From contig JAHBMJ010001393.1 of NCBI GenBank assembly GCA_018398765.1, forward strand, positions 1 through 31,520: a stretch of DNA of 31,520 bases, given 5' to 3'. The notes under the pieces are model-generated. The model searched no databases, had not been told where the DNA came from, and was given only the letters and a program-made list of their open reading frames with translations. How positions within the stretch are numbered: the first letter of the stretch is position 1; each line of letters starts with the position of its first letter. Shown piece after piece: positions 2,807 through 30,403 of this stretch. A program made the position numbers and the translations under genes. This stretch comes from Chromera velia (lineage: Eukaryota; Sar; Chromeraceae).

Positions 2807-5800
2807 GGAACACCACAACACCGTAACCTTGTTTGCAGATCAGATGATGACAGCAGCACAGAAAGGAAAGGTGGCCTCGAGGAGTGGACTGGCAAGACTT
2901 CAGAGGCGGAGACACCTGGAGACGGAACGAAAGAGGTCAGCATCTCCTGATTCTTCTACTCGAAAGAAGAAGAATGTTGCACTGTTAGACTACCACGTTC
3001 AATGACAGCTCCAGAATCAGGTAAGGGGAGTACTCGGGGGTGGGACTGCAGATGAATGCAGACTTGCAGCGAGAAGTGGACATCAGCGGTCTCCAGCTGC
3101 TATCGCACAGTGGCCACTGGGTGCTGGTGACGAGTGGGTTGACTGAAGTTCGGGTCCGTACTTTCATGTGTCGGCACTTTTATGTGTTCTGTGTGTGCAC
3201 ACTCCCGTGGGTTCCGTGTGTTCGCACTCCTGCGAGTTCTGTGTGTCCGCACACTTCCATGTCTTGTGTGTTCGCACTATTTCATGTATTCCGTGTGTCC
3301 GTAGTTCCGTGTCTTGTGTGTCCGCACACTTCCGTGTCTCTGTACCTTCGTGTGTCTCTGCACTTTCATGTGCCTCCGTTTGTGCAGGTCGGCCTACAAC
3401 GATCATATTCTGCAGGTCATGGACAACCTTGCCGCACTCAACCGATCGGAATGGTTCACGGCTCCTCTCTCTCCCTGCTGAACACACCAGCATACCATTT
3501 TTCTGTTTGCTTCCGCCTCCACCAGAGTGCCCTGGTACAGGAGGGAATCAGCGGGATGATTGTACTCCGAAGGAGGTCAGTTGATGCTCTGCGTGTCAAG
3601 GCATCGGAAGACAAGCAGGTCAAAAAAACACACACAACGGGGGATGTGCATAGTAGATGCATCAAGAGTCCAATTGAGATACACTGGTGTAACGGCAAGC
3701 TCCTTCTTCCAGTCTCTATCTATCTTGTCTCGTCTTCTTTACTCTCAAGCAACGCAGCAGCAGCAGCAGCAGTCAGAGTGCGGTAAGCATAACATTCAAT
3801 GGTTGGGATGCGTGAACCGCCGTGTGTCCGTGCTCCAGTGTGTTTAGTGTGGTTGCACCTTCGTGTCTCTGTATTTCCTTGTTTCCATACATCCACACTT
3901 CTGGTGTGTGTGTCTTCACCTCCGTATGTCTGCACTTCCACGCGTCTGCACTTCCAGCCATCGGCACTTTCGTGTGTCTCTGTTTCTGTGTATGTCCACA
4001 CTTTCGTCTGTCCGTACTTCTGTGTATGTCCGCACCTTTGTACGTCTATGTGTATGTAGCTACTCTCACAGTGGGGGCTGTGCACGGAGTAGGGAAGATC
4101 GGGACTCAATTCATAGAATTTTCCAGGTCAGCTCCCATGTGCTGCTTCTGATCTTGGAAGTTCCAACTCTGCTGCTTCTTCAGATCTCCTCCCACCTGCT
4201 TCTTCAGATCTCAGCTCCCACCGGCTCCTTCATCTTTTGGAAGTCTCAACTCTGCTGCTTCTTCAGACCTCAGTTCCCACTTGCTTCTTCAGATCTATGC
4301 TCCCACCTACTGCTTCAGGTCTCAGAAGTCTCAACCCTCCCCCCTCCATCCACTCTCACACCTACTTTTCCAACCTTCAGCAGCCTGCAGCCCCCCTCTC
4401 TCCCTATCTGTCTGCTGCATGGTCAGTCTCATGCAGATCTGTTTTATTTGACCTCCTGCAGATCCCCTTTATCTTCTTTCCACAGAGTCTACAATCATAC
4501 AGTCGTCTTGCCAGGCCTTCTTCCATCTGCTTGCTAGTCTTTTTGTTTATAGACATCCCCTGCTGGTTGCTCGCCATTCTGGTACAGACAGACCCCTTCC
4601 ACCTACCTGCTACAGCCCCCTCTGATGGGCGCCAGCAACGTCCCCTCAATCTGTTTGCATCTGCTTGCAGCCCCCCTGTATATTCACATACTGTCTTCCC
4701 GTCTGCGATTCGTCTGATCCTTTCGTTCTTTCATTGTTCATTTCAGTGCTTTTTGTCGTGCCGTGTCCCTACTGGAACGGTAATTACCGTTCCCCTCTCC
4801 CTCTCTCTCGTTGTGCTTTACGCAGAACCAGCAGGGAGTGGGGGAGAAAAAAAAACGCCAAGCGGTAAAAGGCAGCAGGTCGGTCCCTTTTTGTGAACCT
4901 CAACGTCCTTCTTATTCCTGTGTGCCTTCTCGATTTTGTCTCTCTTCACACTCAACACAAGGGAGGTTTGTTCCAAAGCAATAGAGGTCGTATGCATGAT
5001 GGTTGTTGTACACACGGTTTAGCTGCATATCTGTCGCTGCTTTTTTGTGTGTGTGCACACACCTCCGTCGGGTTTCAGACGGTCAGTCAACAGAAAAAAG
5101 GAGAGGGAATGGGTGCTCCAACCACAGCAGTCGGACTTGTGGTTTTTTGTCCATTCCGGTCGCGTTCTTCCTCTACTCTCCCCCACACGGTCCCACTCCT
5201 TACACCCTTGTCCCACTCTTCAGACTAATACTGTATAATCTCTCCCGACTCCGCAGTTTTCTCCTCCCCCTTTTTGTCCTCCCTCCATTCCCGTAGGTAC
5301 GCCATTCTCCTCATTTCGGGGCTTTTCTCATTATTGATTTGTGTTGTTAGTGTGTTGTCTGCAGCAGCTCCACGAGAGAGATGCACAATACAGCGAGATT
5401 ACAGAGCTACCGGCGGGAATGACCATGCACCAGACAAGGACAGCGGTCTCATGACTGCATTTATCGACTGGAGGAAGCAGAGAGCGGAAGTAGGGCTGAC
5501 GAGACTGGGTTTTCCGCTTCCGTCAGGGCGAGTTCCGATCGTGGACAGACGAGAACGGTAGGTGTCATGGTGCTGCCGATGAAGTTTTGGTTGATACAGT
5601 ACCTAAGACTCAGACGTTCCTCCTCCTTTTCCTTTTCATGGTACCCACCCATCCTTGAGTGAATGAGCGACAGGTCGACTGGCTGATTTAGTAAGTGAGT
5701 GACAGACTGTTGCGGCGTTCCAGTGGAGTGGCGGGTATTGCTCCCGCACAGTAATGCGTCTTCTTCTTGCCTTGTCTGTCTCGTGCCCCTCTCCTTTTTT

Positions 5801-6581: not shown

Positions 6582-7440
6582 GTTCTCAAAGCTGTAGAGC
6601 GTGTCACTTCTGCCTCGGTCCCCAACCTTTTTTTTTTCTTGGTGTTCTCCTCTGCTCCTTCTTCCTCCAGACTCCCCTGTTCTTTTTTTCCCTTTACTCT
6701 CCCTCCTCTACGGCCCTTTTGCTCATCTCCCCGCATTTTTGCATCCCTCTTCTCCTCATTCTCTCTTTTTTTTTTCTGTGCGCTCCCTGTCGATCCCCTC
6801 CTCCCTTCTGTTTTCTCCCCGTATTTCCTCACGTTCTTTTCGTTCTCTCCTCTGCTTGGTTCTCTTATTCCCCAGTTCCCGTCTTCCGTTTCTGTTTGTC
6901 TTCTTTTTGTTTATTCCCCTGCTTCCACTGTTCCGGTGTCCTCCAGTTTCCCCACCCTTCTGTCTCTTGTTCTCCTTTCTTTTCCTCTTCTCCTCACTCC
7001 CTCTCCTGCTCTTTTTTTTCCTCCGGTAACACGCCAATATTGGAGCAGCAACACTCCTTTTTGTATTACTGCTGTAGCGTGGTTGACATCACGGGCCGCT
7101 ACATGATAAACGCGGGTATGTCCGCAGTGTACACCGGTTGGTCTTCCGGTTGAGATTCCAGTGCTTCCCGGTCGTGTGCCCCGGTGTGTTCCCACACAAG
7201 CTCATGACATTGTGCATCCTCCTGCGGGAGACGGAGGTTGCCAAGTAAGAAAGTATGCATGAGCGGAGGGGGGATGATTCTTTTAATCTGGTGGAGGCAT
7301 GCTCCTGGCTGCAGCCTGGCCGTGACCCGCGGAAGGGAAGCAGTTTTTGAGTGCGACATCCCTTTGACATGTGAACTTCTACCTGCCTGATGGGATACTG
7401 GAACTGGCTAGATAGTAAGCTATGGTAGAGAGAGAGGCAT
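6582..7440 (+). other. pyrimidine-rich spacer, probable intron or decayed gene end
   Basis: Nearly unbroken C/T tracts run from 6610 to 7020. The resulting Ser/Phe/Pro/Leu frames are composition artefacts. 7020-7400 is more balanced and may contain further exon sequence, but I cannot assign a frame. Confidence 0.4.
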
Positions 7441-11254: not shown

Positions 11255-13105
11255 TCAGACCCATTGCAGAATCTTGTACACTTTTCCGTCAGGCCTCTAA
11301 CAAAATCCCCTCTCCCCTGTTTCTGTTCAGATCTTAGATGTCTCCCCTATTTCTGTCAGACCTCCGATGGAACCCCCCCCTCCCCTGTTGCCGTCTACCT
11401 CCCCTGTTTCAGTCAGACCTCCAACAGAATCCCTTCCCTGTTTTCATCTAAGTCTTAGATGTTTCCCCTGTTTCCATCAGGTCTCTGAAAGAACCCCTCC
11501 CCTATTTCTGTCCACCTCCCTAGTTTCCATCAGATTTCCTACAGAACCTCTCCCCTATTTCTGTCCACCTCCCCAGTTTCCATCAGATTTCCTATAGAAC
11601 CCCTCCCCTATTTCCGTCAGATTTCCTATAGAATTCTTTCCTTGTTTCCGTCAGACCCCCCATAGAACCCCTCCCCTGTTTCCGTCAGATTTCCTATAGA
11701 ATTCTTTCCTTGTTTCCGTCAGACCCCCCACAGAATCCCCCCCCTGTTTTTATCAGACCTCCCACAGAATCTCTCCTCTGTTGCCGTCAAGCCTCCCCTG
11801 TTTCTTTTAACCCCTCCCCGTTTCCGTCAGACCTCCCACAGAATCCCTCTCCTGTTTCTATTAGAGCTCCCCCGTTTTCGCCAAACCCCCTGCAGAATGC
11901 CTCCCCTGTTTTCGTCAGACCTCCCCTGTTTTTTTCAAACCCCTCCTTATTTCTGTCAGACCTGCTACAGTATCTCTCCCCTGTTTCCGTCCACCTCTCA
12001 GATGTTTCCCCTGTTTTCCGTCAGACCTCCTACAAAATCCCTCTCCTGTTTCCGTCAGACCCGCTACAGTATCTCTCCCCTGTTTCTATCAGACCTCCTA
12101 TAGAATCTCTCCTCTGTTTCTGTCAGCCCTCCCCTGTTTCCGTGAGACCTCCCACAGAATCCTTCAACTGTTTTCGTCAGACCTCCCCAGTTTCAATTAG
12201 ACCCCCCGATAGAATCCCTCTCATGTTTCTGTTAGACCTCCTCTGTTTCTGTTAGACCTCGCCCTATCTTTGTCAGACATCCTACAGAATCCCCCCTTTG
12301 TTTTTGTCAGACGTTCTATAGAATCCCTCTCCTGTTTCTGCTAAACCTCCTATAAAATCTCTCCCCTGTTTCTATCAGACCTTCCACAGAATCTCTTCCC
12401 TGTTTTTGGCAAACCTCCCCTGTTTTCGTGAGACCTTCCACAGAATTCTTCAACTGTTTTCGTTAGACCTCCCCTGTTTCAGTTAGACCTCCCACAGAAT
12501 TTCTCCCCTGTTTCTGGTAGACGCCTTATAGAATCGCTCCTCTGTTTCCGTCAGACCACCCACAGAATTCCTTCTTTGTTTTCATCAGATCTCTACAGAA
12601 TCATTCCCCTATTTCCATCAGACCTCCCCCTGTTTTCGTCAAACCCCCCACAGAATGCCTCCCCTACTTTTGGCTAACCCCTCCTGTTTCCGGCAGACCT
12701 CCCCTGTTTCCGGCAGACGTCCTAGAGAATCCTTTCCCTTCTTCTATCAGACGTCGTACAGAATCTTTCCCCTGTTTCCAGCAGATGTCCTACAGAATTT
12801 TTCCCCTGTTTTCATCAGAGCCCCCGACAGAATCCCTCCCCTGTTTCCATTAGACCTCACCTATTTCCGTCAGACCTCCCACAGAATTTCTCCCCTGTTT
12901 CTGTCAGACCACCCACAGAATTCCTTCCTTATTTCCGTCAGACCCCTACAGAATTATTCCCCTATTTTTGTCAGACCTCCCCCTATTTCCGTCAAACCCC
13001 TCACAGAATGCCTCCCCTACTTTTGGCTAACCCCTCCTGTTTTCGGCAGACTCCACATAGAATCTCTCCCCTGTTTCCATCAGATCTTCCGTATAGAATC
13101 CTTTG
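11255..13105 (+). repeat. large minisatellite, 35-36 bp unit
   Basis: About 50 imperfect tandem copies of a unit of the form CCCCTGTTTCCGTCAGACC plus TCCCACAGAATCCCT. Variants change single bases and unit length (35 or 36, sometimes shortened). Where the unit is 36 bp the plus frame stays open and would encode Ser/Val/Arg/Pro-rich 12-residue repeats, but frames break often and no start region is seen. Confidence 0.9.
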
Positions 13106-13610
13106 CATATGGATGATAAATGTGTTCCTATCTATAATTATACATATGTACGTATGTGTACGCCTTTTGTCTTGCTCCCCATGCAGCTGTGTAGCTCAGA
13201 AAAGGAGGACGCTTACTGTTCAGCTTAAGCGCACCCCCCTCCGTGACCGCTGCATGATCTACTCGATTCCTCTATCTGGTATTGCTCCAAAAAATGGCCA
13301 TCAGTCAGCCTTTGTTCCTTATTTATATTGTTTGACCTACAGAAAGAATGTTGGCTACAATAATTATGTGACTGTTTATACCTGCTGCTGCTGCTACTCG
13401 TTGCTACAAATTTCGGTAACCAGGTGTGATGGTGGTGAAGATATAGGGACTCATTAAAAATAATTTAATGATCCACACACCATAGTATGTTTTCATATCA
13501 TACACACAAACACCCACTGTTTATATATCATAGAGACAAACACTCGCGGCTGACGTGTTGTACAGATAAACACACAGTCTTGATTTCCCTCTCTTACTCA
13601 GATACCACAG
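13106..13610 (+). other. no firm gene; possible exon sequence
   Basis: A ccatgcag acceptor-like site near 13185 precedes a short open stretch. The sequence then becomes AT-rich with CACACAAACAC repeats at 13470-13575. A ataccacag acceptor-like site directly precedes the ATG of the next ORF. Confidence 0.3.
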
Positions 13611-13943: not shown

Positions 13944-14235
13944 ACCCCTCATTCTAACTCGAATGATGGTATATTGTACTATAAGCTTTCGGAGGAGCAG
14001 CTGTTTAGGTCCCCTTCCGCGGGCTGCTTCAAGTTACGGTTATAAAGAGGAGACGTGACAGGCACTATAGTAACTGCTCTTGGGATAGTGTTTTGTTTAT
14101 CAGAGTCAAATCTGTGCTACGGTCGTTCAGTAAGGTGGTTTCAACACCCATGGTTCAGTGGTATTATCTAATTGCTGATAATCGTATGACTTGCCCATCG
14201 TATACATGGATAGTGGTATTTTTTTTACCTTTTTT

Positions 14236-14640
14236 TACGCCCAGGGGCGACTGTTTTTTACAGTTAGATACGCCCGGGGGCGTTTTTTCTTATTAGGGTA
14301 TAGCCTGTTCTTCTTATTTAGCTTAAGACAACTCATAAAGCTGTTGATCCTAAGGGTACTAGGATTAAAATATGGAATGTAAATAGTAGGTCGTGTATAT
14401 CGTTAAGGGGATTTAGCCTCGTCTTAACATGATTGCCTTACCCTTTGCTGAATAATGAAGTGTTATTCTAGTTGGGGAATTTCAAAGTGTTACTACATTA
14501 TTTTAAGTGTCATTAGTATCGGGAGATAAACTAGGCTTAAAATGATACTGATGACACTTGTAACACTATTTCCCCAAACTTTTTAGATTTTTTTATAAAC
14601 CTCACCAAAATTTTCCCCCTTCAACCACTATGGAGGAGTA
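14236..14640 (+). repeat. outer inverted repeat, left arm
   Basis: Begins TACGCCCAGGGGCGAC, then TTTTTACAGTTAGA, then CGCCCGGGGGCGT. The reverse complement of the same series ends at 30369. Similarity continues through TTCTTATTA and TAGCCTGTT, and later a shared AAACTAGGCT followed by ACT..TGACACTT. Each GC block is itself palindromic. Iterated TAACACTT-like words follow in both arms. Overall similarity is moderate, so the pair is old or only distantly related. Confidence 0.55.
14497..14565 (+). repeat. hairpin: AAGTGTCATTAGTATC and its inverse
   Basis: AAGTGTCATTAGTATC near 14499 pairs with GATACTGATGACACTT near 14543, with one mismatch over 16 bp and a loop of about 28 bases. The arm carries the same TGACACTT word that fills the termini of the 18781-27263 element. 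Confidence 0.7.
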
Positions 14641-14654
14641 GTTTGACATTATAT

Positions 14655-14795
14655 GAAAAATATAAAACAAAGCGTCATAAATGTCACTAGTGTCACTTGA
14701 AGCCTCAATGCAGTATTAAATTAAGTGACACTTCAAAAAATACGGACCCCAGAGTGTCATCAAGGTGTCATTATTTAGCTTTATCCCTATTTATA
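14655..14795 (+). repeat. relic TIR-like block with TGACACTT words
   Basis: AATGTCACTAGTGTCACTTG, then AAGTGACACTTC, then AGAGTGTCATCAAGGTGTCA. Word order and spacing resemble the inner half of the terminal repeat at 18975-19095 (shared CAC.AGTGTCACT..AAGCC). It may be the end of a related, deleted element. Confidence 0.45.
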
Positions 14796-16994: not shown

Positions 16995-17215
16995 AACTGG
17001 TATCTCTGGTGGGTATCTCCGGTGGGAAAGACTGGTATTTCTGACGGGAAGGACCGGTATCCCCAGTCGGAAGGACCAGTATCTCTGGCGGGAAGGACCG
17101 GTATCTTCAATGGGAAGGATCTGTAAATGAAAAGGACCGGTATCTCCGGTAACGAGAAGGACGGTGTCTCCGGTATAAGGGAAAGGACCGGTACCTCTGG
17201 TAACGAAAAAGACTG
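16995..17215 (-). repeat. 22 bp minisatellite, unit GGACCGGTATCTCCAGTGGGAA
   Basis: About eight tandem copies of a 22 bp unit (GGACCGGTATCT core), lying in the gap between the exon-like islands 17424 and 16781. Confidence 0.8.
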
Positions 17216-17974: not shown

Positions 17975-18320
17975 CGAACGGGGTATCTTCAGTGGGAAGG
18001 ACGGAATCTCCGGGATAAGGGGGAGGACCAGTACCTCCGGTAACGGGAGGAAGGATCCGTATCTCCAGTAACGCGAAGGACCGGGATCTCCAGTTGAAAG
18101 GACCGGCATCTCTGGCGAGAAGGACCGGTATCTTCGGAGGGAAGGACTGGTATCTCCAATGGGAAGGCCCGGTATCTCCAGTTGAAAGGACCGGCATCTC
18201 TGGTGGGAAGGACCGGTATCTTCGGTGGTATCTCCAGCGGGACCGACAGGTATCTCCAGTGGGAAGGACCGGTATCTCTAACGGGAAGCGCCGGTATCTC
18301 CAGTAAGATAAACGGTAATA
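17975..18320 (-). repeat. 22 bp minisatellite, main block
   Basis: About fourteen copies of the same 22 bp unit, with occasional truncated units, in the gap between exon-like islands 18390 and 17687. Confidence 0.85.
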
Positions 18321-18780
18321 TCTCTGGATACTTATATTAAGATAAGGCTTGCAAACAGATAGATGCAAACCTCAAACAGGAGCACTGACCTCCCATCATC
18401 GCGGTGTTTTTTGCCGATCGTTGCATGGCATCGCGCTTGCCGTCAAGGAGGCGCAGCACGATAAGCCAAAAACCTAAGGGTTCTATCACTTGCTTTACGT
18501 TCGGCTCCTGCCTCGTGAATCTACAGCTTAGAGTCTGCGAGGAGGCTGGTGTTCTCCGTCTTGTCCAGGCCCATAACCCCCCTCTTCAGTCAAGTCTCGA
18601 ACCTGGTCATCCACACACCCTACAGGCAGACATCGAGAATCAAACCAAAGTCTGGATGTCCCGAGTTGTTATTTTAAAACCAGTAACTATATATCGTTTT
18701 CTCCAAACCACTCGCCCCCCCTCCTTTCCCCCCTACCGAACAAGTAGGAGGATGAAAAAAGTTATATATTTATTATGTAA

Positions 18781-19095
18781 TGACACTGGTGACACTTTGG
18801 GGGAAGACAGATCCAAAAGTGTCATTCAACAGCGGCTTTGATTCGACCTGTCAGTGATACTTATGACACTTATGACACTTTTTAGAATTATTTTATATTA
18901 AAAATAATACATAACTAATTTAATTCCTCCTACATATTTTTTCAATTTTTTTAAAAAATAAAAAAATTCTGGGAGAAAGTGTCACAACCGTCACAAGTGT
19001 CACTGTAAGCCGGATCCAGCTCCTACTTTCTGTGACACTTTGATTTGGGATGTGACACTTTCACATCCGGTGTGACGTTTTTTACTGAGTGAGGG
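18781..19095 (+). repeat. terminal inverted repeat, left
   Basis: Starts TGACACTGGTGACACTTT and ends near GACGTTTTTTACTGAG. Matches the reverse complement of 26936-27263 along its length, including CCTGTCAGTGATACTTATGA and GTGTCACAACC.TCACAAGTG. Outer and inner thirds are well conserved and a central AT-rich 80-100 bp is diverged. It contains around ten TGACACTT words in both orientations. Confidence 0.9.
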
Positions 19096-19284
19096 GTTGT
19101 AGAAAACGGAGACAAGCAGATGGATTAGGCAAAGCTACAGGAACTGTGTCGAGCACTTTGGAGAGAAGACTGCGGCACTCCGGGAAATGCAGGAAGGCTG
19201 CCATGGTCTCCTCCTGAGACTGTAAAGAGCTGGAAGACAAATCGAAAAAACCGTCTGACGAACCTGCAGGAGGTTGCGGCACAT

Positions 19285-19560
19285 CAATCGGAGATTGGCT
19301 GGGGGGCTGTGTATCGGAGGTTTGTCAGATGTTTGTGTCGGAGAGGTCTGGGGGACATCAGTTGGAGATTGGCTCGGGGGATGTGTGTTGGAGATTGGCT
19401 GTATGTTGGAGGTTTGTCGGATATCTGTGGCGGAGATCTTTCAACATCAGTCGGAGATTGGCTGTATGTCGGAGGTTTGTCGGATGTCTGTGTTTAGAGA
19501 GGTCCGTGGAACACCAGTCGGAGATTGGCTGTGTGTCGGAGGTTTGTCGGATGTCATACA
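19285..19560 (+). repeat. tandem repeat inside the element (GGAGATTGGCTG...GGAGGTTTGTCGGATGT)
   Basis: Four to five imperfect units of about 65-75 bp, each with GGAGATTGGCT and GGAGGTTTGTCGGATGTC. The open frames over this stretch are repeat by-products. Confidence 0.75.
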
Positions 19561-20560
19561 CAGGGGTTGAAGCTCGCATCGAAGGCATCCCATACAGACG
19601 CTACACACTCAAACAGACTTACCCTCCCGCAGCCTTTGCGTAGACGGAGTCGATCGAACGGGCGCCGTTGCCTCCTCTTTACCCTTCTCGCGTGTGTGCA
19701 CCCACTCGCACTCGCCGTTTTGTGGTGCCCTTCCCACTCCTCTCTGCTCCCGAGACCTGCGTTTTTCCCACGCGACGCCCAACAGCAGCTTGATCACCCG
19801 TCACAATCCCTCCAAAAGAGAAATGCCCCCCCACATCTCCGTGTATGCCCACTCCCTGATCGCCGCACCCTCCCTCGAGGACAGTACCACCACCTCCCAC
19901 ATCTACAGCAGCACCGGAGACAAAACGAGGACGAGGACCGGGAGGTAGCTCCGTGGGTCAGCCCTTTTGGTCTTCAGCTCCACCGCCGCCTTTTGCACAG
20001 ACACTGGCAGTACTCCTCATCTTTTCCCCCGTCGACCCTCCAAGGTGTTCCCTCGAATGGAGGGGGGGTGAATCGACAGGGAGACAGCGGTTGCGTTTGT
20101 TGTTCGAGGTGTACGGTGTTGAAGCTTCTGCTGGCAACGTTTAGCCGCCCGGTCCCAAACAAAGATGGACAGACGAAGACAAAGGCGAGGTCGAACACAA
20201 GTCTGCGGTAGCTGTAAAAAAAAGCTGCAAACCCTCACTCAGTCAGACTCACTCAGGGTTCTTACAATTCTATTGCAGCCGGTGATACGTTAGTAGGGCG
20301 GTTTGCATCGTGTGTGCACTCCGCTCAATATGGGTGGCTACTCCAATTAGTGCGAACCGAGTGTAAGTTTTTTTTTACCGATACAGAGTATACGGCGGAG
20401 ATCGAGCAATATGGTGAGCATTATGATAGGGATACAACCCGATACCGATACACAGTGAGCATTATGATAGAGAGATGCAGAGAAAACTACCCAATACCGA
20501 CACACACGGGTAAAAAAAATGGGAAACATACTCTTATACCTCTGCCAACATCAACGCACC
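19561..20560. other. GC-rich to mixed spacer in the element, no gene recognised
   Basis: Overlapping frames on both strands with no decisive coding signal. A Gly-rich minus-strand frame around 19680-19900 (GDVGGHFSFGG) and a Pro/His-rich plus frame occupy the same bases. Short direct repeats of GAGCATTATGATAG occur at 20414 and 20456. Confidence 0.35.
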
Positions 20561-20599
20561 ACCCACACCAACGATGACCACTTCTCCTTTAGCCTCCAC

Positions 20600-21370
20600 C
20601 GTTACCACCACCTTGTTTTCACTTTGATAGGTCCCACAGCCTTCGGGTCCGGGGAACGTATGTCAAGCCGCCGTTTAATGCCGTTGACGCATGTCGAGTT
20701 CTCCGTCTACCTACTGATACGATTCTCCATAAAAAGGGGCTGCTCACAAAGTGTCAGTTGTACCGGCTGATACGGTAGTGCCCAAACAGGGGACTTGCCA
20801 CGCAGTTCTGCCGCTGGCTCCACAACGACGTGATGTTTTCACTTCGGCTCGCCTTTGACCACACGCGACACACGCCAGAGCATGTTCGGATCGGAAAGCA
20901 AAGTTACTGATGGTAACGCCGTTGAGTCTGGCCTACGTAATGCGAGAGCAGCTGGCGCCGTCCTTGCCGAGTCCGGTACCTTCCACCACCTCTTCGAGCC
21001 GGTCGATCTCATCGCAGAGGTCCATGTCCTCGGGCTGCCCTAGGGTGAACATGAGGTGGGTGTTCATCCGGTGTGCCACGTGCCTCTGTAACAGAAAAAA
21101 TACTCACATAGGGATTTTTTGACAACAAAATTTCGTCTGCTCACGCTCACAAGATTTTGTCAGTTTACCAATGCAACAAACTAACTCTAAGAATGGAAGA
21201 GTGGTTCTTCACAATGAAGCGGAGGGCATCTATCTCCTGTTTCCGTATGGAACAACAGGCATGCCTTCTTGTTTACAGGGGAAGAGGGTTCGTCATTTAC
21301 AACATCCGCATCTTTGTCACCCCCCACGCTTTTTTTGCAAACGCCGGGCTGGACTGCGCGATGTTCTTAA
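20600..21370 (-). pseudogene. degenerate minus-strand coding block, identity unknown
   Basis: Protein-like stretches occur on the minus strand in changing frames. One runs about 21085-20935 and directly follows a ttctgttacag acceptor-like site (MNTHLMFTLGQPEDMDLC then EIDRLEEVVEG). Another lies near 20840-20720 (WALPYQPVQLTLCEQPLF). Between and beyond them frames shift or stop. The second fragment has the general look of a beta-rich structural protein, but this is not enough to call a capsid. Position and strand suggest continuation of the broken gene at 21759-21371. Confidence 0.35.
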
Positions 21371-21759
21371 TCACCCCCCGCTGAAGTTAGCACCTGTGAA
21401 GTAAATCACCTTCTTCTCAACCGCGGTCCGACCAAGCGCCGCTATCTTGATATAGTAGAGGGCACTGTTCATGTCTGGGCACACGTTCGTCTGTTCGTTG
21501 ATGGCCTTCAGGAGAAATATATTTTCCTCAACTGTGCAGCCAGGTTCTGGAGGCATGTAAGGGGGGGGGGTGGGGGGGTCTCCACAACGAACGCAGGGTA
21601 GTTGATATCCTGGTTGAGGAGGCCGCCGTGCAAGACCAGGTCCACGTCTATCATATCTAGGGACTCAAAATGAGTCTCATAGGTTTGGGGGGCAGTGTTG
21701 ACAACTCCACGGTTCCCATATCTCATAGCTTTCCGGTCAGTTTGTTTGAGGGACCTCAT
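21371..21759 (-). pseudogene. unknown element protein, frameshifted at a C-run
   Basis: ATG at 21759 opens a frame with MRSLKQTDRKAMRYGNRG and LDMIDVDLVLHGGLL, leading to a Pro run. That run is encoded by C7-A-C9 (21561-21577 on the plus strand as G9TG7), and after it coherent sequence continues in another frame (PPEPGCTVEENIFLLKAI, then ALYYIKIAALGRTAVEKK) to a TGA at 21371, itself next to a G6 run. Two frames joined at a homopolymer suggest a single gene broken by slippage, an assembly error, or less likely programmed frameshifting. No family recognised. Its ATG overlaps a TGA as ATGA in the frame of the upstream small ORF. Confidence 0.5.
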
Positions 21760-21959
21760 AGGCACATCCCATTTCTGTATCAGCCTGGATACAGAAACGT
21801 CTCCCGCTTTCTTGTATAAGCTGCCGCTTTATATTGTGATGATGGCTTTTGTGATAACTATTATGTCTTGATTAATCAGATCTGGTTTGAGGGCCTATAG
21901 CGTAACATGGCAGTCAGTGCTTGTGCCAGGATAGTGGTACACTTAATAAAATTATCCCA

Positions 21960-22187
21960 CTAACTCTGCTTGCGTTGATATGCAAATTTGTCCAAATCCC
22001 TGAGTACTTCTTGGTGAGGTGGCAGCGGTGATAGTGGAAAAAATGACCACACCGGTTCAATGACCATTACACGGACCTGGTTGCCGATACTTTGCAGTGT
22101 TTGGTGGTACTGTTGTACCATCGTTATTGGGTGAGAAGACAATAACCGCCTTCTAACTCCTTGTTTATCTGGAGTTGAGGGTTTCAT
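21960..22187 (-). CDS. small element protein, 75 aa, unknown
   Basis: ATG at 22187 to TAG at 21960, opposite in direction to the nuclease-chromodomain gene and sharing a 99 bp AT-rich spacer with it. It begins MKPSTPDKQGVRRRLLSS and ends in a charged segment (LRDLDKFAYQRKQS). The same frame stays protein-like after the stop (WDNFIKCTTILAQAL) but meets TGA, TAA, TAG and TGA before a TGA that overlaps the next ATG at 21759. The ancestral protein may have been longer, about 143 codons; that extension is uncertain because stops are dense. Function unknown. Confidence 0.45.
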   Translation of the reverse strand: MKPSTPDKQGVRRRLLSSHPITMVQQYHQTLQSIGNQVRVMVIEPVWSFFPLSPLPPHQEVLRDLDKFAYQRKQS

Positions 22188-22286
22188 TTTTTTTAAAAAA
22201 ATTACAAACAAAGGGTTTCATCCCTTTAAGTGAAGAATGCCTTTTTTTATTTCAAGTGCCAGCTCCATGAAACAATAAAACCAAAA
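22188..22286. promoter_or_regulatory. divergent intergenic region
   Basis: A 99 bp AT-rich spacer between the small minus-strand ORF and the plus-strand nuclease-chromodomain gene, with a TTTTTTTTAAAAAAATTA stretch. A single shared promoter region is likely by arrangement. No specific box was identified. Confidence 0.35.
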
Positions 22287-23675
22287 ATGCCTGCAGGAGG
22301 AGCCATCGCCTATCTTATTAACGTCAACCGCCCAGTGCTGTACGCGTTCGAGAATCCACTCATTGGGAATCTGGTGTTGATCAAGATTGGGAGTACCTAC
22401 AAAAATCCTGGTCAGCGGTTCAACCAGTATCATCTGTGCTACCCTTGGGGGGTATCTGTGATTTGCATACTCGTTTTACCACCCACAACGAGCAAAACCC
22501 GTCTAGAACACCTCAAAAAATTACTGCTCAAACTTTTGAATGAATACCGGCTGAAGAGCCTGACCCGTTTGTTCGAATCTCGACAAGAATGGCTCGTCAA
22601 GGTCTCATGGGAATACGTCCTCACAACGTTCCAAAAATTTCGGGACACCATAGTTAAGAACGTATACCGAACCGATTCATACCTTTTGTGGTCTGACTAC
22701 CATTTTTCTTCAAAGTATATTTTAGATTCGGGATGTACCATATCCTTTAACCCAGCTGATGAGTCAGATTGGATGCGGCGGGAGCATACAGTGCCATCTG
22801 CAATTGCATTGAGCCCTGAAGAAAAGGAAGAAAACAGACGGATGCGTGAGCTCCAGCATTATCAAACAACAGAACAGGCCAAACAGATAACAGTCCAGAA
22901 GCTACGCTGGGCAGCAGGGTTTGATTATGAAGCACCAGCCGGAGATATGGATCTATTGAATGAATACCTTAGAGGAAAGGGGGTACTAAATTTTAGTGGT
23001 AGCAGCCACGGAGTGCCAATGACAGCAACTACTGAGTGGGAGGTAGAAGAGGTTTTAGATTACGACGAGCGACGCAATCGGTATAAGGTGAGGTGGAAAG
23101 ACTATCTAGTTGGAAAAGATAATCCGGCTTGGGTACGTGCGGCCGATTTCAAAGGCTGTGGTGACCGGTTGTTGATTGAATACCACCACAAAGTCCGGAA
23201 AGACCTCCAGCTCCTTGATCAGCATCTCGCTGTATTGGACTTTAACCAATGGGAAAGGGAAATTGTAGAACATCCACCAACTTTAGCGACAAGAGTAAAG
23301 GAAGAAGGAGCCTTGGAATGGACACCTAGCATAGAGTTAAAATTGTATTTCAAATTTCAGCTTCCACCCAGTCTTCAAGCAGAACTAGTTCAAGCGTATC
23401 CTGCATTAAAGGCGTTGTTGTATCAAGAATCATCATCGGGAAGAGAAGTAAAAGCTCGTTCACCCCCGGCTGATGATGATGATGATCAAAAGATGAAAAG
23501 TCAAGATCAACGACCCTCCGATCATGCGCTTTTATCACGAACAAAGAGCCCATCAAGGTGGATCAAAGCCATTCGGTCAACGCCTCATAAGCAATCAACC
23601 TCTTTTTATCAATCTTCTTCTTCTTCGCAGCCAGGTATCTTTCAGAAGATGGAGGATTTTATGCGAGATGACTAG
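22287..23675 (+). CDS. T5orf172/GIY-YIG-like nuclease fused to a chromodomain, 462 aa
   Basis: Intact frame. I chose the ATG at 22287; the frame is open 19 codons further upstream without another ATG. Residues 6-115 look like a T5orf172/Mug113-type GIY-YIG domain: AYLI (8-11) for the first strand, KIGST (33-37) for the YIG half, R44 in PGQRF, E74 in the following helix, and EWL at 101-103. 118-245 is a linker with a charged helix. 250-299 matches a chromodomain (EWEVEEVLDYDE, YKVRWKDY, PAWVRAADF, LLIEYH): W251, W270 and Y273 align with the aromatic cage that binds methyl-lysine, and W282 with the conserved Trp of the fold. The tail is Ser/Asp-rich. The inferred role is cutting or processing DNA with guidance to modified chromatin. 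Domain calls are by eye; the first Tyr of GIY is uncertain. Confidence 0.8.
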   Translation: MPAGGAIAYLINVNRPVLYAFENPLIGNLVLIKIGSTYKNPGQRFNQYHLCYPWGVSVICILVLPPTTSKTRLEHLKKLLLKLLNEYRLKSLTRLFESRQEWLVKVSWEYVLTTFQKFRDTIVKNVYRTDSYLLWSDYHFSSKYILDSGCTISFNPADESDWMRREHTVPSAIALSPEEKEENRRMRELQHYQTTEQAKQITVQKLRWAAGFDYEAPAGDMDLLNEYLRGKGVLNFSGSSHGVPMTATTEWEVEEVLDYDERRNRYKVRWKDYLVGKDNPAWVRAADFKGCGDRLLIEYHHKVRKDLQLLDQHLAVLDFNQWEREIVEHPPTLATRVKEEGALEWTPSIELKLYFKFQLPPSLQAELVQAYPALKALLYQESSSGREVKARSPPADDDDDQKMKSQDQRPSDHALLSRTKSPSRWIKAIRSTPHKQSTSFYQSSSSSQPGIFQKMEDFMRDD

Positions 23676-23895
23676 TTAACATGCCAAGGTAGTAGCCCTT
23701 GTAGTAACACTCTTTGCACGTCCCAATAATCATATCATCGGGAACCAGTGGCGTCTCACCGTACCACAGTCGTTTGGAAAAAAACTGATGAATACACTGC
23801 TGGAGAGCTGGTGAAGATATTAATATGCGATCAAAAAATGACTTCGTACTTCGGCTTCTCTTGATGACCGAGTGGATATATGTGAATATACACAT
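23659..23895 (-). CDS. small element protein, 78 aa, unknown
   Basis: ATG at 23895 to TAA at 23659; the last 17 bases overlap the 3' end of the convergent nuclease-chromodomain gene. The protein is basic at the N terminus (VIKRSRSTKSFFDRI) and has a CKECYY cluster near the C terminus. Upstream is strongly AT-rich DNA with TATACTTTTTATATG-like boxes, and it lies between the primase-helicase and the nuclease gene. No family recognised. Confidence 0.45.
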   Translation of the reverse strand: MCIFTYIHSVIKRSRSTKSFFDRILISSPALQQCIHQFFSKRLWYGETPLVPDDMIIGTCKECYYKGYYLGMLTSHLA

Positions 23896-24152
23896 TTGCT
23901 TTCAGAAAGTCGGACTATATGAGTTGGAAAGTGATTTAAAGATAAAAAAACTTTTTTATGTATATTCATTCATATAAAAAGTATAAAAACTTCCGATTCT
24001 CAACGACGGGCCATGCAGGCTTATCAACTCTATTATCCCGAACGAATCCGTAAAAGCAGACAACAGTGGTACTAACAAAAGTGTCTAAATCCTGATTGGG
24101 TCCAAAATCACCGTCATAAGGCACGGTTGTACTACTATAACCGTTGCTGCCA

Positions 24153-26558
24153 TCAGGATACTAACGAGTAGTCCTTTGCTGCATCTGTAAACTTGAGGCC
24201 ACATAACCCGCGGTCTTGTCTACTATAGTGCCGCTGTGCCCCATGTTTAATTAAGGTTTGCTGGAGCTTCATTACACTCATGTTTATTTTGAAGCGGGAA
24301 AGAAACAATCTGAGGTCATCGTTCTTAATTACATCAGTGGCAAAACGAGTAATAATGAAACAGTTACGACAAATTGAGGCTGCGTCTTTGTCATCGCTAA
24401 AGCTGTCGACATTCTCAGAGACCACGGACGATAACTGTAAGGCACAAGGCTCATAGCATCGGAAGATTAAATGGTAGCATGTATGGATTCACCGCGTACT
24501 TGAGCACTTTTCCTTAATTTCCGGATCGGCTATTTTATATCCACTGAAGTTAGTGCGTTGTTTTTCGTGTTTTTACTGCTTAAACCACTCTGATGGTTTG
24601 AACTGCGTCGTGCTTTGGAAAGAGACGAGGGTTTCACGGGTGTCGGGTGGGTTAATCGGTGGAAGATCATTACAAAACATTAATAACTGGGCCTAGGTTT
24701 TGAACTCTCAAGGATTCTGGTGTAATTTTCTCGCATATAGGACGTCGCCCCCAGAGTTGAAACGCTTAATCAAGTTTCCGTTAATCCGGACACTCCAATC
24801 CGCAGCATCCATTTTTATCTCCTGCGTGATTGACAACCGTCCGAACTCACAATCCAGCATCCAACCCTCCTGTTTAGCCGGATCGGTATTTTGTGTATTC
24901 ATCAAAAACACTTCCGAGACGATATTCGTGATATACCCTGGGAATGTGGCTTGGAGGAGGTTGGTTGTGACTCCTTTACCGGAGTTACGGTCCTCCATAC
25001 AAACTCCCCAGTGTTTATCTTCGACATGGCCCGCCAATGCTCAAGCAAGGAAGCGAAGAAAATCAAGCGTTTGGTCTTCTCCAAAAATTGCTTCAAAAAT
25101 CTGGGTTCGGACTTCTTCGATCGCGTCTTCATCCAGAATAGGTTTATAATCATAAGGGATCACTACTGCGGTCTCCACCGCTTCAAGCAATTCGTCCTAC
25201 ATAATGAACTGTCGGTGTTGAAAGTCGTATACCCCGTTTTGAAAACAGATTTTCCCCTTTATTGTTGTATGCAGTCGGTTGTAAAACATATCATCAGGTG
25301 GGAGCAATACCTTCATAGCCTGAATAATATTTTTGCATCCCGGAATATTAGCGAAGTACGGAACATTTTTTTTCTTTTTCCCTCCAGAGGAGGGCTTCAA
25401 GATATTTGCTCTTAAGCAGGCGGCCTGGAGTTCACGGTCGACCATTTCTGGGGACGTGTACCATTGGTAGTTAACTTGTAGATAGTATTGCCCCCGACAA
25501 TACTTAATCTGGTCTTTCAGTATATCTCGGAAGAGTTCACCTGCCTCGCGATCGGTGTGAGCGACCCGTTGCTGCATGTGTTCTTCTTGTTTTTATTGGG
25601 ATGAAAGCAGTGGTACCGGTGGTAGAGGTGGTGGGGATTGTTCAACTGATTGAAGTAGGAGTGATGAGGATAGAGTCGGAGTTGAAAGAAATAACTGGGC
25701 GTATTTTTCAGGATTTTTGGTCTGGGCCCAGAGGTGTAAGGATGCTTTGGTCAACTGGTTTGTTTCTCAAAGAGTTAATGAAGTGTAGTCTTGATCGCAC
25801 GCTATTGTACAATAGTTGGACGGACACGTTTGGGAAAACGTATAGAAGAACTTACGGCCGTCTTCTCCGAGTTCATTTTTGAGGAGTTGCCCTACCTCAA
25901 TCCACTCTTGCCGGTCTGTAGCGCAACTTGTAGATAAACAAGAACATAAATTGGCAATTTCGGTTAAGTAGTTTTCTTTTAAATCAGTTGTTGATGCATC
26001 GGTAGGTAATTGGACAGGCGGGGGTATTTTCTTCCTTTTGAGGTCCTCTTTTATAAAGTCTGGAATAGAAAGTACTTCTCTATCCACATAACGGTACTTA
26101 ACCGTTATCGTTTGCTTTTGAAGGACATATACCATTGGGGGGGCAAACACCAGACTGTCATCACTGCGGATGTCTACTTTATTGTACGACATCAACCCAT
26201 TGGTAGTCGTTGACACCTCCGGGTCATATTTGCAATACAAATGATAACCGTTTGGTAACTTAACCGTGTAGTACTCTTTTAATTCCGGATGTTCTTCTAC
26301 CATTCGTTGGTACCCGCCTACATCATCAAAGTCAATCATAGTTAAATTACTTTGGACACCATATATGATAGCAAGTGCCTTATGAGTTTTGGGATGGATA
26401 TAGTTCTCCATTGTTTTGCGTGTCATTTCCTTCCAACTGAATCCACATCGAAACTGTTTCTTTTCTTCACCATTCTGGTTGATAAATATAGTCAGACACG
26501 GAAACGTAAAGAAGAGAAAGCCGGCTTGCCGGTATTGATTGAGCTGAGCAGGATCCAT
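24153..26558 (-). pseudogene. primase-polymerase/D5-like SF3 helicase, eight in-frame stops
   Basis: One frame of 802 codons from ATG 26558 to TGA 24153. Residues 1-200: archaeo-eukaryotic primase-polymerase with D76/D78 (MIDFDD), H106 (NGYHLY) and D129 (VDIRSDDSLVFAPP). 205-310: PriCT-2-like region (EWIEVGQLL, then HLWAQTKNPEKYAQL). 440-700: SF3 helicase with Walker A RNSGKG (K528), Walker B ITQEI (E580), FNSGGD before LYAR, and motif C FCNDLPP (N630). 700-801: C-terminal DNA-binding-like region. It would prime and unwind element DNA for replication. In-frame stops at codons 264 UGA, 322 UAA, 454 UAG, 506 UGA, 617 UGA, 622 UAG, 662 UAA and 690 UGA interrupt it, yet homology runs through every one without a frameshift. 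The first 263 codons (the primase part) are intact. Family is firm; functional state as read is broken. Confidence 0.9.
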
Positions 26559-26575
26559 TGTATTTATATAGGTAG
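26559..26575 (-). promoter_or_regulatory. TATATAAATA box directly before the primase-helicase ATG
   Basis: On the minus strand CTATATAAATACA ends at the ATG, so the TATA-like box is only a few bases upstream. This very short leader would resemble viral promoters more than typical host ones. Confidence 0.45.
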
Positions 26576-26935
26576 GATAAGCTTTCTTTAAGTCATTTTA
26601 TCGGGATATATGCCAACGGGGGCTGTGTATTTAGGGTTTGATTCGAACGTTGGTCCAACCTATAGAAAGAAAAGGATAGGTAATGAGAAATACAAAGGTA
26701 GACAAGACCTAAATTGGATTTAAAAAGTGCAAACACCGTATGAAGGCCATATATATGAGTAGTGTGAACCGTACACATACGATGGATGCCTCTTTTAAGT
26801 AATCAGAAAGGTACAAGGGAAAAAATACTGCAAACGCAAAGGTAAAAGGCAAAACAAAGTAGCGAGAGAAACATCATAGCTTTTTTTAAAGAGTAAAATG
26901 AAAGTTTGCCCTGTTCCCTTTCCCGTGCCTTTCTC
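26576..26935. other. spacer between primase-helicase gene and right TIR, no gene recognised
   Basis: AT-rich at first, then purine-rich. Only short frames. Confidence 0.45.
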
Positions 26936-27263
26936 CCCCGCACTCAGTAAAAAACGTCATTCTTTATACGAAAGTGTCATATCTAGAAAAAAAGTGTCAC
27001 TGAAAGAGGGGGTGAAATCCAGCTCACAGTGACACTTGTGATGGTTGTGACACTTTTCCTCCAAAAATTCTTTTTTCTTTCTTTTTCTTTTTTTTGAAGA
27101 GAATAGGACGAACAAATATATTCATTATTTAAATTATTATGATTTTACAAAATAATTCTTAAAAAGTGTCATAAGTGTCATAAGTATCACTGACAGGTCA
27201 AATTAAAGCCACCGTTGAATGACACTTTAGGTTGTGCCTTCCCCTAAAGTGTCACAAGTATCA
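26936..27263 (-). repeat. terminal inverted repeat, right
   Basis: Reverse complement starts TGATACTTGTGACACTTT and ends at GACGTTTTTTACTGAGTG; see the left TIR. Slightly longer than the left arm because of its AT-rich centre and a pyrimidine tract near 27070-27090. Confidence 0.9.
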
Positions 27264-28370
27264 TTTTTTTTTTTTCTCTTCTCTTTCTTTTGGGTGGGGG
27301 GTACAGGTGTCATGTATGTTGCGCCCAGAGGCGGCGAGGTGGGCGTCTCATATTCTAGAGTCCTTCACCCTATCATCTTTGTGTGTGTGTATGTGTGTGT
27401 GTGTGTATGTGTGTGTGTTCTCCTCCTGTCTTCTTACTTTTTGGCTGTATCACATTTTTACGCTTGCATGCAGATGCCCTGCACAGAAGAGCATGCAGGG
27501 TACGGCAGAGAAACAAAAGGTCCCCCCCTGTGTTTTTCCATAAGCCCTCTCCCTTTATCTACCCCTCAGAATTGGCGGCCAGGCCAGCTTGCTTTCCTTA
27601 TAGCTATGTGGCAGCTCTCACATACCGTCTTCTCTTTGGTCTTTTTTTTTTTCCCTCCCTCTTTGTTTCCCTCTGTTTTTCCTATCTCTTCTCTTCCCTG
27701 CATTTCTTTTGGTTATAGCTATTCCAGGTTTTGTTCTCTTTTTTCTCTCACTGTTTCCTTACAGTCAGGTCTTCTATCAGCTGTAGCACATGTGTCTCTC
27801 AGCTGCCTTTTGAGTATGAACGTGGCAGGCCGAAGTGTCAGGTATCCGACGGCAAGATGTATCTTGGCGAGAGACGTCCCTTTCTTTTTTCCTGTTTTTT
27901 TTGCAGCCAAAGGCCCCAAAGAACTCCGACATCAGCTGTAGCTCCTCGTGAACGGAGGTGGGCGGCAGCCACGCTTCTTTCACCTTGTTTTTCCCTTATT
28001 TATTCATGTTCTCCCTCCCTTGATACCTCTTCTACTGCCTCCTATTTCTACACGCTTTACGGCTGTCCATCCATCCGTTTCTGCACGCCTCTGTGTGGCT
28101 GTCTTTGTGGTGGTTATTCCTCTGCCTCTACTTGTTTGGGCAAGCATGTATACGGTGCTCTCAAGGGAAAGTAGACAGAGAAATGAAACGAACGGACACC
28201 CACGGTAACCACGCAGACAAGAAACATATTCATCTATTTTTGTAACAAAGGAAAAAAAGAAAGAGAGAGAAACGAAGGGCCTTCAAATCTAAGAGCAAAG
28301 GAGAAAGAAGAAGCAAAGAATATGATCAAGCTTTTTTAGCGAGACAGGCTTGGGACTGCACTTTTGTATA
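27264..28370 (+). other. pyrimidine-rich DNA with candidate exons
   Basis: Islands with splice-like borders: about 27764-27840 (acceptor ttacag, donor CAG|gtatcc; SAVAHVSLSCLLSMN) and about 27906-27957 (acceptor ttgcag, donor GGAG|gtgggc; PKELRHQL followed by an in-frame TAG). The remainder is C/T tracts. It could be the paralogue of the 2800-5500 gene, since the duplicated segment follows directly. Confidence 0.3.
27380..27419 (+). repeat. (GT)n microsatellite with two AT interruptions
   Basis: Twenty dinucleotide steps of GT with two TATG breaks, in a pyrimidine-rich non-coding stretch. Confidence 0.95.
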
Positions 28371-28444: not shown

Positions 28445-29150
28445 ATTGTAGAGTGATTTAAGTCCCTTCGTGCTTTCATCATTCTTTTTAGTGTTTTCGC
28501 CATAGCACGTCCGTACTGGAACAGTAGTTTCTTATTGTGCTTTCGCACAACTAGTATGGAGTAGGAAAAAGAGCAACAATAGTAAAAAGGAGCAGGTTGG
28601 TGCCCTTTTGTAAACCTCAACGTATCACCACCAGTGTGTGTTTTCGATTTTGTTCCTCTTCATATAAAGAACAACGGAAGCCAGTTCTTACTAAAGGATG
28701 TCTGATGGTTGTTGCATATCGTTTGGCTATGTATGTGTCTGTTTGTGCCTTTCGCTGCTCTTTTGTGCATACACCTCCATCGGGTTTTAAGCAACAGAAA
28801 AGAAAAGAAAGGGAACGTACGCTCCAACCATAGCAGTCGGACTTGTGGTTTTTTGTCCGTTTGGATTGTGTTCTTCCTCTACTCTCTCCCATACGGTCTC
28901 ACTCCTTACACCCTTGTCTCACTGCGATTTATTTTTTTAGGCTAATACCAAACAATCCCTCTTGACTCTGATTTTTTGTCTGCAGTCTTCTTGTCTCCCT
29001 TTTTTCCCTCTGTTTATTTCTGTTGGTACGCAATCTCATACCATGACTCTCATATTATTGTTTTGTTTTGTTGGTGTGTTGTCTGCAGCTCTACAAGAGA
29101 AACGAGGTTGCAGAGCTACCAGAAGAGTGATCATGCACCAGACAAGGACA
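28445..29150 (+). repeat. segmental duplication, copy 2 (partner at 4700-5465)
   Basis: Collinear diverged copy in the same orientation as 4700-5465, preceded at 28370-28440 by the same CACTTCCATGTCT-type repeat words found before copy 1. The exon-like end (after ctgcag at 29089) has one fewer base than copy 1 in the CTACC..CATGCACC stretch, which shifts its frame. Confidence 0.8.
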
Positions 29151-30079: not shown

Positions 30080-30369
30080 CTATTTTAAGTGTCAGTAGTG
30101 TTAGCTATAGCCTAGTTTAGCTTCGTTAACGCTTTAGAAAACCGATTAACGCTTTCGAGAAATAGAGTAACACTTTGCTAGTCATATTATTAAAAAAAAG
30201 TAGATATCACACCTCCCACAAATTCCTATCTCTTTCTAGCAACACAATTTAACCCCGAGAATGTTATCAGCTTTTTAAAAGAATTAAATGAGGATAACAG
30301 GCTAGACTGTAATAAGAAGAGACGCCCCCGGGCGCGTCTAACTGTAAAAACTGGTCGCCCCTGGGCGTA
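30080..30369 (-). repeat. outer inverted repeat, right arm
   Basis: Reverse complement begins TACGCCCAGGGGCGACC, TTTTTACAGTTAGA, CGCCCGGGGGCGT, matching the arm at 14236. Iterated TTAACGCTTT and GTAACACTTT words lie at 30126-30178. With the left arm this would bound 16.1 kb that includes the smaller TIR element. Confidence 0.55.
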
Positions 30370-30403
30370 CAAAATCAAAACATAACCCTTTGGAACACCG
30401 CTA

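Follow-up and report, generated by a model that had tools for sequence, protein, structure and literature searches.

The window (the whole stretch of 31,520 nucleotides of Chromera velia DNA that was analysed) rather probably carries, in decayed form, one copy of a DNA element that is repeated in the genome and has no recognised capsid or integrase; the element would replicate from its terminal inverted repeats (TIRs), and its nuclease might cut the insertion site. It is best interpreted as related to the gene pool of polinton-like viruses and virophages, devoid of a capsid and copied from its terminal repeats. The presence of TIRs, a PrimPol gene and a nuclease-chromodomain frame at positions 18781..27263 was confirmed.

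Organization of the element

The original observation that inverted repeats enclose PrimPol-SF3 and GIY-YIG/chromodomain genes was borne out by the alignment of both TIRs over 332 columns (E 1e-65), with ungapped arms at 18779-18909/27135-27265 (82% identity) and 18953-19096/26936-27079 (76%). The PrimPol/SF3-helicase gene and the GIY-YIG-chromodomain frame lie between them in convergent orientation (Table 1). Among all copies, both TIRs were found in that of the window only. An element of 8.5 kb had been proposed; its TIRs and gene pair stood, but the 8.5 kb are not a wholly conserved element, since a genome search did not find the interval 19100-21750 elsewhere, except for two short repeat matches, and the corresponding interval of copy C1089 does not align with it. 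The suggested check for target-site duplications turned out negative, none being visible at the ends of the window element (a single element with old ends), and an empty insertion site was looked for and not found.

Table 1. Features of the element and their positions in the window.
Feature	Position	Strand	Remarks
Left terminal inverted repeat	18779..19096	+	Ten TGAYAC/GTRTCA motifs flanking an A+T-rich tract
Interval inside left TIR, repeat-rich	19100..21750		Not conserved among copies
Stretch upstream of nuclease gene, kept in several copies	21756..22146	-	Possibly a small gene
GIY-YIG-chromodomain protein, open frame	22287..23675	+	462 aa counted from first Met
GIY-YIG (T5orf172-type) part, limits approximate	22329..22600	+	Alignment with family pieces
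Chromodomain	23037..23189	+	PF00385, E 0.003, under Pfam cut-off
Broken D5-type PrimPol/SF3 helicase gene	24153..26558	-	One frame, 8 internal stops
SF3 helicase piece, Walker A-like stretch	24711..25040	-	PHROG 1156, E 1e-5
PriCT_2 domain	25779..25955	-	PF08707, E 4e-9
Prim-Pol (AEP) domain	26118..26417	-	PF09250, E 4e-7
Right terminal inverted repeat	26936..27265	-	78% identical to left, motif order the same

Each TIR of the window contains ten TGAYAC motifs arranged round the A+T-rich tract. TGACACTT was present in 22 copies in the window versus 1.47 expected (maximum 5 in 100 shuffles), and 16 of the 22 were located inside the TIRs, 8 in each. The open PrimPol frame of C2799 likewise has a motif array upstream. 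These arrays may be likened to an origin or a protein-binding array.

Primase-helicase gene

The PrimPol gene of the window, which extends to position 24153, is a single frame of 815 codons, spanned without frameshift by a single-frame tblastn match to the open relative on C2799. With its internal stops, this copy of the gene is dead. The degenerate coding block described previously proved to be its broken downstream part. The PHROG entry matched by the helicase piece is annotated as "DNA primase"; the first Gly of the Walker A-like stretch is substituted, and D5_N reached a Pfam E of only 0.003 in the window copy. D5 primase-helicase domains and fold are those of an AEP-S3H replicase, a trait variable among polinton-like viruses and not defining on its own.

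GIY-YIG-chromodomain protein

The T5orf172 profile matched 11 of the 36 family pieces (best E 2e-8) and was not listed for the protein of the window up to E 1 in the Pfam scan; the GIY-YIG assignment of the latter rests on alignment with the matching pieces. Tyr (20/20), Lys (20/20), Arg (18/20) and the Glu of "EW" (22/22) are conserved across the family pieces; one candidate Glu position is variable, with E in 8 and D in 10 of 21. With this profile and these catalytic residues, the family is predicted to be a GIY-YIG (T5orf172) nuclease. The chromodomain profile PF00385 also matched 11 of the 36 pieces (best E 9e-6), and the positions that we take to form the aromatic cage, by mapping to HP1, are conserved (W 12/12, W 12/12, Y 13/13); profile and cage together indicate a chromodomain. 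The chromodomain fold match was not significant (E 0.35), and the predicted structure of the protein was poor (pLDDT 58). Selection on the open nuclease frame of the window could not be demonstrated from codon-position counts: changes unique to this copy were distributed as 10:6:11, and a coarser comparison yielded 12:11:27 and 18:23:29.

Copies across the genome

The genome, of 178 Mb, holds at least 31 PrimPol loci and at least 77 nuclease-chromodomain loci (the latter a merged count; the lists of both genes are lower bounds). Thirteen PrimPol loci, including that of the window, have a nuclease-chromodomain locus within 4 kb, and 12 of these 13 pairs are convergent and 2.0-2.9 kb apart; within 12 kb, 15 of 18 pairs are convergent. 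No nuclease gene was found within 12 kb of 13 of the 31 PrimPol loci, and for many nuclease loci no PrimPol was found. The pairing is not due to chance.

The search for further TIR copies suggested at the outset placed the TIR next to PrimPol on C1530 and on C2903, and next to the nuclease gene on C1089, in matching orientation. Genes and TIRs are thus linked in other copies too, as expected from the claim that primase-helicase, TIRs and nuclease-chromodomain protein go together in a recurrent element. That the window repeats are unrelated small repeats flanking decayed genes by accident is very improbable: repeat copies beside which neither gene was found occur on C1886, C1293, C1659 and C3429, but these share outer and inner flanks and therefore constitute one duplicated relic, whereas the three gene-bearing loci agree in orientation and, in a comparison that took in C1530, C2903 and the window, neither contig shares an outer flank beyond the TIR with the other or with the window. 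These loci bear on the objection that the TIRs belong to unrelated elements. The second objection, that the genes occur without these termini, concerns a diverged C376-type subfamily which carries the genes and whose termini, possibly the same TIRs, were not reached: an inverted repeat was looked for in C376:80500-91999 and none was found, and a sharp edge in C376 is not an element end, because three other copies continue past it.

Decay of the copies

Every copy family examined shows decay. A reassignment of stop codons was considered and rejected, since the in-frame stops fit C:G-to-T:A decay. In alignments of the copies, TGA corresponds mainly to Arg (62/124) and Trp (19), TAG to Trp (110/186) and Gln (32), and TAA to Gln (47/130), which is what such decay predicts (counts are one per query per stop, and the events are not independent). 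Among the host HSP70 matches, 37 of 38 lacked stops. Support for a RIP-like targeted mutation was weak; C-to-T changes by next base were CpA 47/729, CpG 25/360, CpT 35/740 and CpC 21/544.

Searches for virus and mobile-element genes

The element showed neither an integrase or recombinase nor a packaging ATPase. The Pfam scans of its selected frames, with the decayed pieces scanned in part, gave no rve integrase, and no capsid gene was recognised in those frames with general Pfam and PHROG models. The protein-primed PolB profile PF03175 had 0 matches in the genome, but likewise 0 in the controls. The Rfam search gave no match and the viral-contig scans no relatives. No public environmental relative of the nuclease-chromodomain protein was found; there was one for PrimPol and ten for the helicase profile. 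Matches to a phage collection were at 22%, in 4 records.

It is unlikely that the copies are what remains of polinton-like viruses or virophages that had integrated and whose capsid module was lost or decayed beyond recognition, the GIY-YIG gene being a homing nuclease without a role in integration. AEP-S3H replicases, T5orf172/GIY-YIG genes and TIRs are reported for such viruses in passages of PMC4642659, PMC12220804 and PMC12721341, the helicase relatives sit on environmental contigs of up to 24.7 kb, a size compatible with such viruses, the longest being 24.7 kb for P0005 and 21.4 kb for P0008, and the general decay of the copy families would fit as well. However, the two genes keep a constant spacing wherever the pair recurs, so that the reduced unit itself was amplified, and the packaging ATPase profile PF04665 had 0 matches genome-wide (the control was positive in 2 of 14 genomes, and diverged ATPases could escape).

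Quite unlikely is also a satellite mobilised in trans by the enzyme of another element, e.g. a tyrosine recombinase or a Polinton integrase, which the TIRs would serve. The genome has 19 tyrosine-recombinase (PF00589) matches elsewhere, and the lack of a visible target-site duplication has a parallel in a tyrosine-recombinase polinton-like virus described in part of PMC12721341; but no helper was linked to these TIRs. In a by-eye comparison, none of the 19 matches shared a contig with a listed locus of the two genes (lists that are lower bounds).

Proposed mechanism and classification

For an element replicating from its own termini, the primase-helicase would be loaded at the TIR arrays, open the A+T-rich tract and prime replication of the element in an excised or extrachromosomal state, which host polymerases would complete. 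More tentatively, the nuclease-chromodomain protein, held on methylated histones, might cut chromosomal DNA, and the element might be inserted there through end joining or recombination and not through a staggered transposase cut. The copies would afterwards have died, mostly through C:G-to-T:A changes. A putative role of the nuclease-chromodomain protein in place of an integrase is plausible.

The element may be a new variant of known elements and, possibly, a new class. A distinct class of mobile DNA in eukaryotes that has no capsid, primes itself from motif-bearing TIRs and is integrated by a chromodomain-steered GIY-YIG nuclease, without DDE transposase, retroviral-type integrase or tyrosine recombinase, is conceivable but doubtful. 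If the proposal is true, the module by which polinton-like viruses and giant-virus satellites replicate can persist in chromosomes as a transposon lacking capsid genes, and the fusion of a nuclease to a chromodomain may take over the task usual for an integrase-chromodomain fusion. Terminal motif arrays and nuclease provide two biochemical predictions open to direct test.

Comparison with known systems

Some Polintons/Mavericks have a chromodomain on their integrase. Like the element presented here they are self-replicating TIR elements; they differ in that the latter has a primase-helicase and no recognised protein-primed PolB or retroviral-type integrase. Penelope-like elements, in the passages of PMC1564403 considered, have a GIY-YIG nuclease proposed as the cutter of the chromosomal target, but carry a reverse transcriptase, of which the element has none. 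Transpovirons, as portrayed in part of PMC3671162, are small, capsid-less and of the same gene network; they are linear plasmids of mimiviruses with an SF1 helicase, whereas the element is chromosomal and has an SF3 helicase. Polinton-like viruses, on the passages cited above, share with it the primase-SF3 helicase fusion, nucleases of the T5orf172/GIY-YIG type, TIRs that are hundreds of bp long, a presence in many copies in unicellular eukaryotes and, in one case, the lack of a target-site duplication. They measure 14-40 kb and have capsid and packaging genes, none of which was recognised in the element, and, unlike in these viruses, its nuclease is fused to a chromodomain.

Genomic organization and recurrence

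The 177.8-Mb assembly searched includes the window as one entire contig (C1391); assembly size, a copia-type reverse transcriptase and the family of chromodomain genes were the grounds for treating it as eukaryotic. Its features are detailed in the table below, together with the extra gene of a second subfamily. The window PrimPol gene was a single frame of 815 codons with 8 internal stops; its one tblastn match to an open relative (49%) stayed in a single frame.

Coordinates of features in the window and of the extra gene of the second subfamily
Feature	Position	Strand	Details
Inverted repeats (TIRs)	18779-19096 and 26936-27265		78% identity over 332 alignment columns
Prim-Pol/PriCT_2 frame, then D5_N-like part, then helicase part	ends 24153	minus	
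Nuclease-chromodomain open frame	22287-23675	plus	converges on PrimPol gene
Third TIR-like block, diverged	14479-14772	minus	59% to left TIR, 296 columns; 74% over 114 to block near C2799 PrimPol
Copia-type reverse transcriptase fragment	135-1370	plus	RVT_2, 9e-9
Degenerate tandem repeats	11300-13110		spacing 34 bp
Degenerate tandem repeats	17012-17157 and 18039-18350		spacing 22 bp
Degenerate tandem repeats	19280-19555		spacing about 65 bp
Inverted pair	14231-14320 / 30285-30374		84%
Direct pair	5094-5217 / 28800-28923		85%
Extra 248-aa gene, second subfamily	L069:5453-6196	minus	about 70 merged loci in genome

In the same genome, 51 PrimPol matches were merged into at least 31 loci and 96 nuclease-chromodomain matches (89 of 156 candidates scored) into at least 77, both locus numbers being lower bounds. 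A nuclease-chromodomain locus lay within 12 kb of 18 of the 31 PrimPol loci, in convergent (15), tandem (2) or divergent (1) arrangement; within 4 kb, 12 of 13 pairs were convergent, the window counted, with 2.0-2.9 kb separating the matched parts. The remaining 13 PrimPol loci, including any at contig ends, had no nuclease-chromodomain locus within this 12 kb distance.

Eight other contigs matched the TIR, of which C1355 was left out of these comparisons. The TIR was placed ahead of PrimPol on C1530 and C2903, and, without its outer tip, ahead of the nuclease gene on C1089, in all cases in the expected orientation. On C1886, C1293, C1659 and C3429 the repeat was present and neither gene was found; these four share at least 0.35 kb on the outer side and, on the inner side, most of the flank compared, and are thus copies of one relic. 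The original prediction of a TIR element with a primase-helicase and a nuclease-chromodomain protein was right in outline, as the convergent pair recurs and TIRs adjoin the genes elsewhere; this anatomy is real and recurrent.

On C1530 (5456-25962), two PrimPol parts (6700-7198 and 22384-22686) are separated by 15 kb, next to a single TIR and a single nuclease gene; a large insertion may have divided one element, or two copies may be present.

The second subfamily (C376, C3740, C3475 and others) showed the same convergent pair, with PrimPol identity of about 40%, and an extra gene that immediately precedes the nuclease gene in the same orientation. Its 248-aa frame, without Pfam match, gave 101 matches merged into 70 loci. 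For 23 of these the contig had no nuclease match; each of the remaining 47 lay upstream of a nuclease gene and in its orientation, 34 of them at a distance of 1 kb or less. No match to the extra gene was seen on eight checked contigs of the window's subfamily.

Termini and insertion marks

Of 22 occurrences of TGACACTT in the window, against 1.47 expected, 16 fell inside the TIRs. TGAYAC/GTRTCA motifs numbered ten per window TIR, compared with 0.38 per 320 bp in the rest of the window, and 5 to 8, in largely the same places, in seven other TIR sequences, four of which are the duplicated relic. The tract between the motifs was 76-92% A+T, and on C2799 a cluster of 9 motifs preceded the open PrimPol frame. 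Motifs and A+T-rich tract may constitute an origin or a protein-binding array. The third TIR-like block could represent the terminus of a further related element.

The target-site duplications sought by the original prediction were not visible at the ends of the window element. An empty site was not found either: the final 480 bp on the left side were unmatched elsewhere (40 of 41 candidates scored) and the right flank matched a simple repeat alone (40 of 640 candidates scored).

Decay of the copies

The window PrimPol gene contained stops and no frameshift, and other copies both; stops aligned chiefly with Arg, Trp and Gln. A non-standard code as the source of the stops was rejected, since host HSP70 matches were stop-free in 37 of 38, and the element copies are decaying under the standard code. 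In a comparison of six copies of the nuclease gene, C:G to T:A accounted for 161 of the 242 changes found in a single copy, and totals by codon position (92:62:88) indicated no third-position excess. Many indels relative to the window nuclease frame were multiples of three (3, 6, 9, 27); lengths of 1, 4, 5 and 8 were also found.

Characterization of the proteins

The PrimPol relative on C2799 was open over 857 codons, with a stop directly ahead of the first Met; 782 aa of this frame were used for domain search and structure modelling. It matched PriCT_2 (6e-16), Prim-Pol (3e-8), D5_N (9e-5) and, under that family's cut-off, DUF5906 (1e-4). Its AlphaFold model (pLDDT 74, pTM 0.47) matched D5 helicase-primases, with Bodo saltans virus at the top (8e-29), followed by proteins of other giant viruses, ascovirus and iridovirus, of Zamilon and of a Yellowstone Lake virophage; phage proteins were matched as well. 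PDB matches were AsfvPrimPol and poxvirus D5/E5. TM-scores over the whole length were low (about 0.2-0.3), so these matches bear on the fold and domain order of the protein, and say nothing on ancestry. The best environmental relative compared (P0008) showed 33% identity over 726 columns.

The nuclease-chromodomain alignment comprised 36 stop-free pieces picked from a longer list, of which 11 matched T5orf172, a GIY-YIG family (best 2e-8), 6 MUG113 and 11 Chromo (best 9e-6); the sole domain match of the window's own piece was Chromo (0.003). In the GIY-YIG part, covered by about 20 rows, Tyr (20/20), Lys (20/20), Arg (18/20) and the Glu of 'EW' (22/22) were conserved, as were W (12/12), W (12/12) and Y (13/13) in the chromodomain; we take these to be catalytic and cage positions, respectively. 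The structure model was poor and its top fold matches, mainly chromodomains, were not significant.

Remoter nuclease-chromodomain relatives on C1667, C3114, C3700 and C1710 (32-36% identity, matches stop-free) could be younger or domesticated.

Comparison with known systems

No description of a GIY-YIG-chromodomain fusion was found in the literature searched, which comprised few subscription papers and no preprints; in the available passages of PMC1564403, both instances of 'chromo' mean chromosomal breakage. That the nuclease acts as integrase, a step taken in the original prediction, is a fair hypothesis, neither shown nor excluded by these data. Tyrosine recombinases were present on contigs other than the element's. 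By profile search, the packaging ATPase PF04665 had no match in this genome, and PF03175 none, its controls likewise being without match.

Capsid genes and a packaging ATPase are the features by which PMC4642659, in the portions available, describes polinton-like viruses. Among small relatives without a capsid in that gene network, transpovirons appear as the nearest (from the part available of PMC3671162). According to the available parts of the reports, polinton-like viruses and their relatives carry AEP-S3H or primase-helicase genes, GIY-YIG nucleases including T5orf172, or TIRs (PMC4642659, PMC12721341, PMC12220804, PMC10120064).
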